From positions 1 through 27,663 of the IMG/VR virus record IMGVR_UViG_3300025941_000084: 27,663 nucleotides of DNA. One strand, given 5' to 3'. The notes under the pieces were generated by a model, which saw only the letters and a list, made by a program, of their open reading frames with translations, was not told where the DNA came from and ran no database searches. The stretch comes from a virus. How positions within the stretch are numbered: the stretch's first letter is position 1; each line of letters opens with the position of its first letter. Below are positions 12,276 to 24,410 of the stretch, piece by piece. The position numbers and the translations under genes are program-made.

Positions 12276-12797
12276 CTAGCGGGTTCGGACGGTTAGCCCC
12301 ACGCCACCGTTCGACAGTGACGCGCCTTCAATTTGCTCGCCGGCTTTCAATGCCGTGGCGAGCGCGGCTTTGTCCGGTTCTCGTTTCACACGAAACCATT
12401 GGTCCCCGAGCCGCGCCTCGTCCACCATCACCTTCGGCGCCCGGTTGGCGACGGAGGCAGTCCACGCGGCAGTCTCCAGCCGTCGCATGTTGATCGCTTC
12501 CAGGGCTTGGAGCGCCACGGTGCGGTAAGCATCCCGGCGCCGCTCGAACCGGGTCTGCCGCTCGGCAATGTCGGCCTTGCGTGCCTTGGCGGCGTCGGCC
12601 AGTGCATCGGACTCTACTGACGCTTCGATAAGGCGTTCGATCACCGCGAGGCTATCGCCGCCCTCGCCCTGCATCATGTCGTGAAACAGAGCGTCGTCCG
12701 TTTCCATATCAGGGCAGATGGCAAGTAGTTGCTCGCGTATCTGCGACAGTTCCACGACCGCGTTCATCACCGCGTAGGAACTCGGCGGGGTGCTCAT
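12276..12797 (-). CDS. Siphovirus Gp157-like protein
   Basis: ATG 12797 overlaps the preceding stop (ATGA). The 173-residue product has an N-terminal acidic helical part and a long charged coiled coil (DALADAAKARKADIAERQTRFERRRDA). It ends in the typical Gp157 C-terminus: MRRLETAAWTASVANRAPKV, D...LGDQWFRVKREPDKAAL, ALKAGEQIEGASL. Gp157 proteins are common in early operons beside recombination genes; the family has been linked to phage resistance when expressed in hosts, and its mechanism is unclear. Confidence 0.8.
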   Translation of the reverse strand: MSTPPSSYAVMNAVVELSQIREQLLAICPDMETDDALFHDMMQGEGGDSLAVIERLIEASVESDALADAAKARKADIAERQTRFERRRDAYRTVALQALEAINMRRLETAAWTASVANRAPKVMVDEARLGDQWFRVKREPDKAALATALKAGEQIEGASLSNGGVGLTVRTR

Positions 12798-18585: not shown

Positions 18586-18767
18586 TGGCGTTGCCAATAC
18601 GGGCGAATCAGCGGAAAATGAACAACCCCGCGCCGGCTGTCACCGAACGCGGGGCTGTAACTGAATGCGGTGGCCGGGGGGGCCACGCGAGAACCACAGG
18701 ATTGGGTATCCGAGTTCTCGCCGAAACGCCCCTGGCTGTCAATGCCGGAGGTATGTCCGATGCGTGA
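18582..18767 (+). CDS. Possible small protein (61 aa) across a hairpin-rich stretch
   Basis: The ATG at 18582 overlaps the previous stop (ATGA) and the TGA at 18765-18767 lies just inside the DnaA-like gene. A tandem 18-bp repeat at 18636-18670 encodes AVTERG AVTECG. Two of its three differences are synonymous, which hints at coding. The same stretch also holds three inverted repeats, so the DNA or RNA may be the functional part. Confidence 0.35.
   Translation: MMALPIRANQRKMNNPAPAVTERGAVTECGGRGGHARTTGLGIRVLAETPLAVNAGGMSDA
18626..18721. repeat. Three consecutive inverted repeats upstream of the DnaA-like gene
   Basis: CCCCGCG/CGCGGGG (18626-18632 with 18648-18654), GTGGCC/GGCCAC (18670-18675 with 18681-18686, loop of five G) and GCGAGAAC/GTTCTCGC (18687-18694 with 18714-18721) are all perfect. 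The second and third abut directly. No T-run follows, so a simple terminator is unlikely. Confidence 0.7.
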
Positions 18768-19116
18768 GGCGGTAATTCCGACAATCCGAGAGGTGCAGGA
18801 GGCGGTAGCGGCACGCTGGGGCGTGACGGTGCTCGACCTAGTGTCGCAGCGCCGCACTCAGCCGGCGGTGCGGCTGCGCCAGATCGCCATGTGGTTATGC
18901 CGGCATACGACGCTGCACGGCTATCCGCCGATCGGGCGCGCGTTTGGCGACCGGGACCATACGACGGTCATGCACGCGATCAGGCGGGTGGACGAGATGC
19001 TGGAGCGTTCGCCGGAACTGGCGCTTGAACTGGCACAGTTGCGATACGCGTTGAACAGCGGGGAAAGCGTTGATTCCGTGGAAAAGCGGCGCGCGATGAT
19101 GAGGCTGGTCGCATGA
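18760..19116 (+). CDS. DnaA C-terminal (domain IV) DNA-binding protein
   Basis: ATG 18760 is set by a strong GGAGGT site seven bases upstream. The 118-residue protein matches the DnaA box-binding domain over residues 8-82: IREVQEAVAARWGVTVLDLVSQRR, QIAMWLCRHTTLHGYPPIGRAFG, then DRDHTTVMHAIRRVDEML, the DnaA signature. The ATPase domain III is missing. It probably binds DnaA-box-like DNA, either helping phage replication start or interfering with host DnaA. It lies in the replication part of the rightward operon. Confidence 0.85.
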   Translation: MREAVIPTIREVQEAVAARWGVTVLDLVSQRRTQPAVRLRQIAMWLCRHTTLHGYPPIGRAFGDRDHTTVMHAIRRVDEMLERSPELALELAQLRYALNSGESVDSVEKRRAMMRLVA

Positions 19117-19448
19117 GCGGCCTACCTGAACCGCGCTGCCTCGTCTGCACCACGGAGAAATGCCGAAGGTCCTGGATCTACGTTGCGCGGGACTACACTG
19201 ACGGTCTGACCAAGATCGGCAAGAGCGTGAACGTCAGCGCGCGTTTCATCCACTACCGAAAGCGAATGAAGCACGACGTTCGCCCGGTCGCACGGTTCCA
19301 GCCGACGTGTGATTTCCTGATAACCAAGCCCGAGTCTGCCGCTATCGCCCTGCTTCCGGTTAGCGCGTGGGTATGGGGTGACTGGTATCGGGTGCCTCCA
19401 AGCGTGGCCATCGAGGCCGTCACCACAATCCTGGAGGGCGCCCATTGA
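19113..19448 (+). CDS. GIY-YIG-like (T5orf172/MUG113-type) nuclease
   Basis: ATG 19113 overlaps the DnaA-like stop. After a Cys-containing start (CLVCTTEKC), the segment WIYVARDYTDGLTKIGKSVNVSARFI matches the T5orf172/MUG113 branch of the GIY-YIG superfamily, with the conserved KIGKS and a following Arg (44). A Glu lies in FLITKPESAAI, near the place of the catalytic Glu. The 111 residues are short but close to the domain size. It may cut DNA during replication or recombination, or act as a mobile nuclease. Confidence 0.65.
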   Translation: MSGLPEPRCLVCTTEKCRRSWIYVARDYTDGLTKIGKSVNVSARFIHYRKRMKHDVRPVARFQPTCDFLITKPESAAIALLPVSAWVWGDWYRVPPSVAIEAVTTILEGAH

Positions 19449-20248
19449 GCGACCTACCAAACCCTCTGACACCACCCGACTGCGATCTGCGAGGCGGGTT
19501 CGATTGGATGCCTCTGTGGGGCCATCGGATGTTCTCCAGCAGTTGGTACCGCGTTGCCCGCAAGGATGGGCGCGGTGGAATTGCGTCGCTGAAATTGTGG
19601 TGGTCGGCGATGCTTCAGCACCCGGCCGGAAGCCTGCCCAACGATGAGGAGGAACTGTGCATGCTCGCCGACTTCGGCGAGGACATGCGGGCATGGCGCA
19701 AGCACCGCGCCGTGGCGATGCACGGCTTCATCCTATGCTGCGACAACCGCTGGTATCACCCAATGGTAGCGGAGCAGGCGGTCGAGGCATACGGGCGCCG
19801 GCTGAAGGCTCAGGCGTCGAGACAGACTGATGCGGAACGGCTCCGGCGCTGGCGTGCGGCCAATGGTCATCCACCCACCAAACCGAACGGTCACCATCCT
19901 CCTGAAACGGAGGATGAAACGCGTTTCACAGAGGGTTCCGTCCACCGCTCCGAAACGGGGAGTGAAACGCACGACGAAACGCGTGCTGAAACCCCGGACG
20001 AAACGTCGCGCGCGACTACAGTACAAAACAAAACAAGACAGGTACCCCCCCGTAGCCCCCCCGTGAACGGGGGGGCCGCGCAACGCGTTTCTCGCCGGTC
20101 CAGGCCAGCCAAGAATGCTTTCCACGATCTGGGTCGGGAGTTTGACGCCGAGATGGCGCAGAGTGGCAGGACGATCGAGGGAACTGCCGAGGAAGTGGCG
20201 GATTTCCAAGCGTTTAGGCGCAGGTTGGCGGGAGGGGGTTATGGCTGA
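19445..20248 (+). CDS. DUF1376-like phage replication protein containing the putative origin
   Basis: The start is TTG 19445, overlapping the previous stop as TTGA; the first ATG in frame is at 19508. The 267-residue protein has a DUF1376-like N-terminus: DWMPLWGHRMFSSSWYRVA, ASLKLWWSAMLQHPAGSLPNDEEELCMLADFG, RAWRKHRAVAMHGFILC-DNRWYHP. DUF1376 proteins are found in phage replication regions and are thought to take an initiator (lambda O-like) position. A repeated Glu-Thr segment with four-residue period (about 154-187) is encoded by the iterons described separately. The C-terminus has a basic stretch and an acidic helix. Confidence 0.65.
   Translation: MSDLPNPLTPPDCDLRGGFDWMPLWGHRMFSSSWYRVARKDGRGGIASLKLWWSAMLQHPAGSLPNDEEELCMLADFGEDMRAWRKHRAVAMHGFILCCDNRWYHPMVAEQAVEAYGRRLKAQASRQTDAERLRRWRAANGHPPTKPNGHHPPETEDETRFTEGSVHRSETGSETHDETRAETPDETSRATTVQNKTRQVPPRSPPVNGGAAQRVSRRSRPAKNAFHDLGREFDAEMAQSGRTIEGTAEEVADFQAFRRRLAGGGYG
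19904..20075. other. Putative lambda-type replication origin: iterons, A-rich tract, hairpin
   Basis: GAAACG occurs at 19904, 19916, 19952, 19964, 19976 and 20000, with GAAACC at 19988, all in exact 12-bp register. An inverted CGTTTC at 19922 makes a 12-bp palindrome with the copy at 19916. An A-rich tract (about 20015-20044) follows, then a perfect hairpin CCCCCCCG-TGAA-CGGGGGGG at 20056-20075. Lambda ori in gene O has iterons, an A+T-rich tract and a palindrome in the same order. Confidence 0.65.
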
Positions 20249-20702
20249 TCAACTCGTTGTCCGGCGCTGGTTGATCGACCTCGGCAAGCTCTCCGCGGCC
20301 CGTTTGAGCCACGACGAGGCGGCCGATTTCATCGACACATCGACGCCGATCCTGGCGATGAGGTTCCCGAATGATGCGTTCAACGTCGTCTCTCTGGAGG
20401 CTGTCGCGAGCGAATGTAAGTACCTCCCCACATACGGTGAACTGGTGCCGCTGTTGAGCGCGTGGTGGCGGCAGAACCGTCCCCATCATCCCGCTTTGCC
20501 ACCCCCGCCAATCCCTGCCAGAACTCCACCGACCGAGGACGAGATCGAGGCGGTTCACGCGCGGGTGGTCGAAACGGTTGCGCTGCTGCGGTCCAGCATC
20601 CAGCCGCTTGCCGACCGGCCATCGGGTCCTCGCTACCTATCCCGAGAGCAGCTTGCACGAGCTTACCGCGAGGCGGGCGTTGTGGCTCCGAACGTGCCAT
20701 GA
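20241..20702 (+). CDS. Hypothetical replication-region protein (153 aa), possible helicase-loader position
   Basis: ATG 20241 follows GGAGGGGG and overlaps the end of the DUF1376-like gene by eight bases. It is helical at the N-terminus (QLVVRRWLIDLGKLSAARLSHDEAADFI), has LEAVASECKYLPTYGELVPLLSAWWRQ, a Pro-rich linker and a C-terminal helix (YLSREQLARAYREAGV). In lambda-like phages the gene after the initiator encodes a helicase loader; no sequence motif confirms that here. Confidence 0.6.
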   Translation: MADQLVVRRWLIDLGKLSAARLSHDEAADFIDTSTPILAMRFPNDAFNVVSLEAVASECKYLPTYGELVPLLSAWWRQNRPHHPALPPPPIPARTPPTEDEIEAVHARVVETVALLRSSIQPLADRPSGPRYLSREQLARAYREAGVVAPNVP

Positions 20703-21492: not shown

Positions 21493-21546
21493 AACGACAG
21501 CGCGGACAGCCCTCGTCGGTCCCCGCATGTCGTGCGGATGCCATCC

Positions 21547-22047
21547 ATGACCCTCTGGTACTGCGCCTGGACCGAACCAGCCCGCGAGTGGCGCGCCTAC
21601 CACGAACTCACTGCCGCCGGCTTCAAAACCTATCTCCCGCTCCATCTCCACCACTTCGACACCAAGCGTGATCACCGCAGCGGATACCGCATCGAGGTCA
21701 TGTTCCCGCGCTATCTGTTCACCGCCCTCGATCTCGCCATCGACCAGTGGGGCGCCGTCGTGCGAACCCGAGGCGTCGCCGGACTGATCCGACACGCACT
21801 AGACCAACCAACCGCGTTGCCCCCCGGCGTCGTCGAGAACCTGATCGAGCGCACCAGCCCACGCGGCATCGTCGACGACCCAGGCGACAACGCCCCGCAC
21901 AGCGCGCTACACGCCGTCCAGCCGCCGGAGTGGCGCAACATCACCAGCCTGGGCAGCTCGGCGCGTGTGAGGCTCCTATGCCGGCTATTCGGGCCCGATG
22001 CCGCACAGCGCATTGTCTCGGAAGATGAGACGGCGCACGCGGCGTGA
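21547..22047 (+). CDS. NusG/RfaH-like transcription elongation factor (NGN domain)
   Basis: This is a 166-residue protein if ATG 21547 is used (ATG 21538 and GTG 21532 are alternatives; no clear ribosome-binding site). The N-terminal domain has the NGN pattern: LWYCAWTEPAREWRAYHELTAAGFKTYLPLHL, IEVMFPRYLFTAL, VVRTRGVAGLIRH, LPPGVVENLIERT. NusG-family NGN domains bind RNA polymerase and affect pausing and termination. A typical KOW domain is not seen in the last 60 residues. Its position just before the packaging genes suggests a phage-specific antiterminator for late genes. Confidence 0.75.
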   Translation: MTLWYCAWTEPAREWRAYHELTAAGFKTYLPLHLHHFDTKRDHRSGYRIEVMFPRYLFTALDLAIDQWGAVVRTRGVAGLIRHALDQPTALPPGVVENLIERTSPRGIVDDPGDNAPHSALHAVQPPEWRNITSLGSSARVRLLCRLFGPDAAQRIVSEDETAHAA

Positions 22048-22927: not shown

Positions 22928-23095
22928 ATGCAACCGATTGCTGAGCAATCCATGACCTGGACCTGCGCCAAGTGCGGCAAGCGGCCATGGAGCCACGCCG
23001 AGCACTGCGCGTGCGGCGCGGCGCGACCGGAGCCGCCGCCGGCCGCCGAGCCGACCGACATCGCACTCGCCGAGGTGATGCCCGATGGCGGCTAA
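22928..23095 (+). CDS. Small zinc-finger protein (55 aa) before the large terminase
   Basis: ATG 22928, or ATG 22952, starts a product with CAKCGKRPWSHAEHCACG, a compact Cys4-type zinc ribbon, then a Pro/Ala linker and an acidic tail (TDIALAEVMPDGG). Its stop lies eleven bases inside the large terminase gene. It may be a packaging accessory; function unknown. Confidence 0.55.
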   Translation: MQPIAEQSMTWTCAKCGKRPWSHAEHCACGAARPEPPPAAEPTDIALAEVMPDGG

Positions 23096-24410
23096 GCCCA
23101 CCAGGCGCATCGATCTCGGCTATCACGCGCGCCCGCAGTTCGCGCCGTTCCACGCGCGCCGCCAACGCTGGGCGTGCATCGTCGCGCATCGGCGTGCCGG
23201 CAAGTCGGTGGCGTGCGTGATGGATTTGATCGACGCGGCATTGCGCTGCAAGCAGCCGGATGGCCGGTTCAGCTTCCTGAGCCCCACGTATACACAGGCC
23301 AAAGATACCGTCTGGCAATATTTGAAACGCTTCACCGCCGAGATCCCAGGCGTCGAGCAGCGCGAGAGCGACCTGATGGTGAACTTCCCCAACGGGGCGC
23401 GCGTGCGTTTGTACGGCGCGGAGAACTACGATCGGCTGCGCGGCACCTACAGCGACGGCATGATCCTCGACGAGTACGCCGACATCAGCCCGCGCGCATG
23501 GCCGGAGGTGCTTCGCCCCACGCTTGCCGATCGCAAGGGGTGGGCGGTGTTCATCGGCACGCCGCGCGGGCGCAATGACTTCTGGCGCGTGCATGAGTTC
23601 GCCGAACAGCATCCCGACGAGTGGTTCTCGCTGGTGCTGCGCGCCGACGAGACCGGGCTGCTGTCACCGGCCGAACTTGAGGACATGCGCACACAGACCA
23701 CGCCCGAGCAGTTCGCCCAGGAGTTCCTGTGTTCATTCGATGCCGCGATCCTCGGCAGCTACTTCGGCCGTGAGCTGGCGGAGGCGGAGGAGGCGGGCCG
23801 CATCACCGATGTGCCATACGATCCGCTGCTGCCTGTCCACACTGCGTGGGATCTTGGCATCGGCGACAGCACGGCCATCTGGTTCTTCCAGGTCTCGCGC
23901 ATGGAACTGCGGATCATCGACCACTACGAGGCGTCGGGCCACGGCTTGCCGCACTATGCCGCGGCGCTGGAGGCGCGGGGTTATACCTACGGCACCGACT
24001 ACCTGCCGCATGACGGCGACGCGCGCCAGCTCGGCACCGGGCGCACCATCCGCGAGACGCTGGCCAGCCTGACCAACCGGCAGCCGCGCATCCTTGCGGC
24101 GCAGAACGTGATGGATCGCATCAACGCGGGCCGCGTGACGCTCGCCAGCGCCTGGTTCGACGGGGACAAGTGCCACGATGGCCTGGAGGCGTTGCGCGCC
24201 TACCGCGCCGACTACGACGAGAAGCGCAAGGCGTTCACCGACCGGCCGCGGCACGACTGGGCCTCACATACGGCCGATGCGTTCACCTACATGGCGCTGG
24301 CCTGGCGTGAGATGCAGCCGGCGAAGCCGCCGCCGCCGCCGCGCGATAGCTGGGCGCGGGCCTTCGAGCGGGCGAGTGCAGAGGATGTTATGGATTGGAG
24401 AATCGCTTGA
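23085..24410 (+). CDS. terL: Large terminase subunit
   Basis: This is a 441-residue protein from ATG 23085 with GAGGTG upstream. The ATPase domain shows a Walker A-type AHRRAGKS (34-41), SPTYTQAKDTVW, NYDRLRGTYSDG, and Walker B MILDEYAD (126-133) followed by the coupling motif FIGTPRGRNDFW. The nuclease domain has AWDLGIGDSTAIWF with Asp near 256 and HDWASHTADAFTYMALA with Asp near 398. It drives ATP-dependent packaging of DNA into the prohead and cuts the concatemer. The length is normal for the family. Confidence 0.95.
   Translation: MAAKPTRRIDLGYHARPQFAPFHARRQRWACIVAHRRAGKSVACVMDLIDAALRCKQPDGRFSFLSPTYTQAKDTVWQYLKRFTAEIPGVEQRESDLMVNFPNGARVRLYGAENYDRLRGTYSDGMILDEYADISPRAWPEVLRPTLADRKGWAVFIGTPRGRNDFWRVHEFAEQHPDEWFSLVLRADETGLLSPAELEDMRTQTTPEQFAQEFLCSFDAAILGSYFGRELAEAEEAGRITDVPYDPLLPVHTAWDLGIGDSTAIWFFQVSRMELRIIDHYEASGHGLPHYAAALEARGYTYGTDYLPHDGDARQLGTGRTIRETLASLTNRQPRILAAQNVMDRINAGRVTLASAWFDGDKCHDGLEALRAYRADYDEKRKAFTDRPRHDWASHTADAFTYMALAWREMQPAKPPPPPRDSWARAFERASAEDVMDWRIA

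Follow-up and report, generated by a model that had tools for sequence, protein, structure and literature searches.

A stretch of viral DNA from IMG/VR record IMGVR_UViG_3300025941_000084 (27,663 nt, analysed over its full length and termed the window) carries a regular array of short repeats within one gene, which raises the question of whether these repeats form an origin of replication or matter only for the peptide that they encode. Lambdoid phages provide known examples of origins that reside within an initiator gene. The gene in the window (19445-20248, + strand) begins with a TTG codon and specifies a protein of 267 amino acids. The layout of its repeats, selection acting at the DNA level, conservation in related and more distant phages, and the presence of replication genes nearby argue that positions 19904-20091 are very probably an autonomous iteron origin within the gene of its initiator, arranged like ori-lambda in gene O.

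Layout of the candidate origin

An earlier note on this DNA had described seven GAAAC units in a single 12-bp register with two slots empty, accompanied by a 12-bp palindrome, an A-rich tract and a GC hairpin, and each of these parts is present. The units, all on the + strand, are GAAACGGAGGAT (19904-19915), GAAACGCGTTTC (19916-19927), GAAACGGGGAGT (19952-19963), GAAACGCACGAC (19964-19975), GAAACGCGTGCT (19976-19987), GAAACCCCGGAC (19988-19999) and GAAACGTCGCGC (20000-20011), wherein GAAAC is followed by G in six cases and by C in one. The second unit is a perfect palindrome that occurs once in the window and is kept in loci L002-L006 and L017, and at the slot of the sixth unit relatives also keep the form GAAACCCC. 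When the whole window was simulated 300 times with a first-order Markov model, GAAAC reached a same-register count of 1-2 at best, compared with 7 observed, and the maximum for any 5-mer was 2-4. This layout is far beyond chance.

The iterons are followed by an A-rich tandem tract, ACAAAACAAAACAAGACAG (20015-20044, + strand), which is a candidate unwinding element. Its A+T content is 20/30 within 65% GC DNA, a richness reached by about six stretches in the window, and relatives carry an ACAAGACAAGACAG-type repeat. Beyond the tract lies a hairpin, CCCCCCCG-TGAA-CGGGGGGG, at exactly 20056-20075 (+ strand), in which the second of two C7 runs pairs with a G7 run; it gains one pair if G20055-C20076 is counted. 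Three further parts had been overlooked. A 12-bp palindrome, GTCGCGCGCGAC, spans the border between iterons and tract (20005-20016), and its core TCGCGCGCG is invariant in six aligned phages. The first C7 run (20045-20051, + strand) completes a C-run/C-run/G-run element and is able to compete with the second for the G7 run. Lastly, an inverted half-site, AACGCGTTTC, is found past the hairpin on the - strand (GAAACGCGTT, 20082-20091) and is of uncertain significance.

The likeness to lambda ori proposed in the earlier note holds for the order of parts: phased iterons in the gene, an A/T-rich tract beside them and an inverted repeat beyond, just as an A-rich tract and then an inverted repeat follow the iterons of lambda. 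In lambda and Stx phages, the iterons likewise lie within the initiator gene and encode the linker between its DNA-binding and C-terminal parts, and it is established for lambda-type origins that O binds both the iterons and A/T-rich single strands (PMC7466680). Lambda iterons are 18-19-bp imperfect inverted repeats present in 4 to 6 copies (PMC7466680), whereas window-type units are 12 bp long with GAAAC heads, number 6 to 9, and vary in sequence between phages.

Two other possible signs of an origin were examined. The GC-skew minimum that the earlier note had proposed to look for is absent from the site; cumulative skew shows a local maximum near 20 kb and therefore lends the origin reading no support. 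DnaA boxes were considered because a DnaA domain IV gene lies at 18670-19116, and they were rejected as an origin part (9 near-matches against 11.6 expected, none inside the origin). That gene encodes a DnaA domain IV-like DNA-binding domain alone (PF08299, E 3e-24) and sits two genes upstream of the initiator-like gene. It was not seen among the upstream ORFs of L002, L017 and L018; in Synechococcus phage Ssp-JY42 a DnaA C-terminal gene adjoins the initiator gene. Elsewhere in the window, 12276-12797 (- strand) encodes a Mu Gam-like end-protection protein (phrog_253, E 2e-21).

The initiator-like protein and its neighbours

The window protein is divided into a putative DNA-binding domain (residues ~1-140), a disordered linker (141-222) and C-terminal helices (225-262). 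AlphaFold2 predicts residues 1-140 with confidence (mean pLDDT 91.6 when folded alone), assigns low confidence to residues 141-222, which are exactly the origin-encoded part, and places two helices after them. Residues 4-133 match phrog_22470, annotated 'replication protein' (E 3.8e-22), and the only other PHROGs match is the primosomal family phrog_3992. The earlier note had called the gene 'DUF1376-type', after a widespread family of unknown function that has ydaU as its member in E. coli K-12. The window protein matches PF07120 weakly (E 4e-4) and misses the gathering score (21.1 versus 30.1 bits), whereas its fold matches in BFVD are DUF1376 proteins (E 6e-11); the related protein of phi297 reaches 32.4 bits by genome search and 29.7 by hmmscan.

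The product had also been called an 'O-like initiator', a term that is supported by its domain layout, gene neighbourhood and iteron placement, whereas sequence and fold searches do not support membership in the lambda O family. The window protein has no profile match to Phage_rep_O (PF04492) at E<=0.1, and fold comparison with the PDB gave no hit with E under 0.7 (domain) or 1.0 (whole chain) and no sign of a relation to O or RepA. A PDB sequence search returned nothing relevant. Since solved structures give no match, it is from the predicted winged-helix-like layout that we infer DNA binding by domain 1-140.

In initiator-like genes of this kind, the gene that follows often encodes DnaB, a primase-helicase, a DnaC/AAA-type loader or lambda P. 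The proteins of phrog_22470 in Pseudomonas and Burkholderia phages resemble the window protein in the N-terminal domain and in having a helicase or loader nearby: in phi297 a DnaB-like helicase gene comes directly after, and in vB_PaeS-D14L and Hali a helicase loader and then DnaB follow. The name of phrog_22470 is an annotation only, and the records of these three phages annotate no origin. Among 114 downstream proteins there were 16 matches to AAA_25, 14 to DnaB_C, 10 to Toprim_2, 4 to IstB/DnaC-type families and 2 to lambda P. In the window, the next gene (20238-20702, + strand) encodes 154 amino acids, shares 60% identity with its homologue in L002 across 100 aa, and is conserved alongside the initiator gene in L002, L003 and L018. 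Its product matches no family at E<=0.5, lambda P, DnaC and other loaders included; its conserved position makes it a candidate helicase loader. Farther downstream, 21532-22047 carries a NusG-like gene (PF02357, E 1e-11), possibly a phage antiterminator, and resembling ORFs follow in L002, L003, L017 and L018.

These features are consistent with a mechanism in which the helically phased GAAACG half-sites and the GAAACGCGTTTC palindrome would serve as binding sites for the DUF1376-related N-terminal domain (1-140). The bound initiator would then build a nucleoprotein array, on which the adjacent A-rich tract would open, and the C-terminal helices together with the conserved next gene product would recruit host DnaB helicase. 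At the far end, the C/G hairpin would form the border, and as a folded single strand it may signal the loading of helicase or primase. Iteron binding, tract melting, helicase loading and origin activity at 19904-20091 are all predictions of this mechanism.

Alternatively, the sites might be operators through which the same protein achieves autoregulation or copy control, or a partition-like cluster, with replication starting elsewhere. In iteron replicons, binding to the iterons often represses the initiator gene as well, and a palindrome under a winged-helix-like protein fits an operator equally well. However, about 460 bp of the gene precede the sites, no promoter-like site is close by, and an operator has no need of the A-rich tract and hairpin that come next, in an order that is kept in distant phages. 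We therefore regard operators or a partition cluster as improbable, and an origin as the better account of the site.

Selection on DNA versus peptide

Another alternative is that the repeats act only in the protein, as a low-complexity Glu-Thr linker produced by tandem duplication. As the earlier note had observed, the window repeats are aligned with codons and spell Glu-Thr, and such (ETxx)n sequence falls in a predicted disordered linker. However, the iterons do not follow the codon usage of either the gene or the record: all seven ET units of the window use GAA, as opposed to 53 GAA and 127 GAG codons in its long ORFs. The alignment of homologues that the earlier note had proposed likewise revealed the opposite of a Glu-Thr peptide kept with unrelated codons and no register.

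The close relatives are five IMG/VR phages with proteins 55-63% identical to the window protein. Their linkers contain 6 to 9 GAAAC units, all five have the palindrome and tract, and all except L005 have the hairpin; the A-rich repeat persists but is less A+T-rich than the window tract. When residues identical to those of the window are pooled, their codons agree as well in 92/106 cases (87%) for the iterons and 24/26 for the hairpin, but in 205/485 (42%) for the DNA-binding domain, and the C-terminus stands at 56/91. The difference between iterons plus tract and domain is significant by Fisher test in L002 (p 0.0002) and L006 (p 0.00009). Taking window and relatives together, GAA accounts for 50/52 Glu codons in the linker, whereas GAG is preferred 38:9 in the DNA-binding domain. 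In L018, whose domain is 56% identical, GAAACGCGTTTC is replaced by GTGACGCGTCAC, with both halves altered symmetrically around an unchanged ACGCGT core. This change moves the peptide from Glu-Thr to Val-Thr, and the hairpin is retained (CCCCCCCGTAGCCCCCCCGT...GGGGGGG).

We extended the comparison by alignment scans that gave 148 non-redundant loci, of which 144 genes entered a linker test. In this test the protein was held fixed, codons were resampled from the usage of the locus, and shared 7-mers were counted. Linker DNA exceeded the synonymous null at p<0.01 in 104/144 genes, and in 74/144 when the tandem tract was masked. Among control regions, 16/144 (first 115 codons) and 13/107 (C-terminal part) passed the same threshold, a rate of about 11-12% that marks the null as somewhat liberal. 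The linker of lambda O, the positive control, scores as the window linker does (p=0.001 for each; 37 direct 7-mer pairs in lambda O versus 6.4 expected), and lambda P and ydaV have no significant excess. A terminase-like gene of the window (23085-24410) has a mild 7-mer excess (p 0.006-0.014 under this liberal null).

The iterons themselves drift in sequence from phage to phage (GAAACG, GTCACGC, TGTCAC, GTAACG, TGTCCC and others). Same-strand spacings are mostly 11-12, 21-24 and 33-36 bp, many of which are not multiples of three. Among the 67 genes with a 7-mer in at least four copies, the copies occupy more than one codon phase in 54 and both strands in 44. A GGGACA/GGGAGA tandem tract after the iterons is translated as Gly-Gln/Gly-Glu at 30 loci, Gly-Thr at 14 and Arg-Asp/Arg-Glu at 9. 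Furthermore, Paracoccus-type phages encode a short DUF1376-like protein and carry the iterons (CTGAAAT/CTGTAAT, both strands) and tract (ACAGGACAAGGACAAAAC) as noncoding DNA 3' of the stop codon. These arrays are intergenic (L012:3564-3811, L175-L177), which separates the origin naturally from coding sequence.

Because codon phase and strand vary and noncoding versions exist, the peptide is an inadequate explanation. The codon-phase and noncoding cases refute a protein-level role as the sole basis of the repeats, and the symmetric palindrome change in L018 also speaks against it; we give it very little credence. Judged by comparison of more than 140 related phages and prophages, a DNA pattern is kept while the encoded protein changes, which reveals selection at the DNA level. 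Two other candidate signals were discarded. A T-free run, considered as a mark of origins in general, gave way to tandem repeats because its length does not exceed the synonymous null (13/145 at p<0.05), and domain columns that covary with iteron type are scattered and confounded by ancestry.

A hairpin element in unrelated initiator genes

The strict C-run/C-run/G-run element is present in 12/144 linkers, where 0.5 would be expected, and in 2/1641 control windows, and its copies cover all three codon phases. At this frequency the hairpin is an optional rather than a universal part. IMG/VR DNA was also scanned blindly for the pattern C6N3C5N3G5, with the permuted pattern C6N3G5N3C5 as a control. 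In the ORFs recovered, a tandem tract usually precedes the element. Among 58 of these ORFs, Pfam matches include DUF1376 (10), Phage_rep_O (4) and HTH_36 (4), and PHROGs replication-initiation families are matched by up to 18 ORFs each. The permuted pattern gave at most ~3/50 per replication-initiation family, with ORF picking that differed slightly in allowing control ORFs on either strand. When 20 ORFs, hand-picked after the group counts were known, were scanned singly, 17 matched replication initiation, O-like, primosomal or DnaD-type families.

One Phage_rep_O gene (L333) combines a lambda-like iteron, CTCAAAACAGGGG, with an A-rich tract and the element. Scan matches L260-L339 place tract and element inside many replication-initiator genes of unrelated families. 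A 737-aa ORF in L297 has the element (L297:4850-4871) in its N-terminal portion and matches terminase large subunit in its C-terminal one; it may be an unusual fusion or reflect overlapping annotations.

A stable GC hairpin might instead act in RNA, as a terminator or attenuator, or as a recombination signal unrelated to the iterons. However, no T-run follows it on the + strand, it has no Rfam family match, and most occurrences of the element are in genes for phage replication initiators, which makes such a role most unlikely. The scans suggest rather that tract and hairpin form a cassette common to unrelated initiators. Whether this is an exchangeable 'opening and loading' cassette common to lambda O, DUF1376, HTH_36 and DnaD-like initiators, with only the iterons and DNA-binding domain family-specific, is a proposal to which we assign about even chances.

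The ydaU gene of the Rac prophage in E. coli K-12 is a full member of PF07120 (92 bits), above the cut-off that the window protein, at 21 bits, falls under. YdaU is like the window protein in gene position, with the AAA protein gene ydaV next, and in three DNA parts of its linker: TGTTCAAACA sites in both orientations, an AAAGATACAGATAAAGATC tract and an ATCCCCCCCTAAATCCCCCCCGGGGGAATC C/C/G element. This linker departs from the synonymous null (p=0.005). The Rac prophage carries an active, normally repressed origin, oriJ (PMC3945230). The ydaU segment L178:5511-5665, with its inverted TGTTCAAACA sites, GATACAGATAAAGAT tract and C/C/G element, is a candidate for oriJ.

Taken on these comparisons, the DUF1376-related family, including ydaU, probably starts phage DNA replication. 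As far as the open-licence literature searched shows, what is new is the DUF1376/phrog_22470 assignment with iterons that drift, the evidence from codon phase, and a hairpin element shared between initiators. One tract read in three codon phases across phages is an unusually clear sign of selection on DNA and not on protein. The hairpin element in several unrelated initiator families may help to locate origins and poses the question of what reads it; if the cassette reading is true, many temperate phage origins would be locatable from DNA alone. DUF1376 itself gains a concrete, testable role as an origin-binding phage initiator, with an exact DNA target in each genome.
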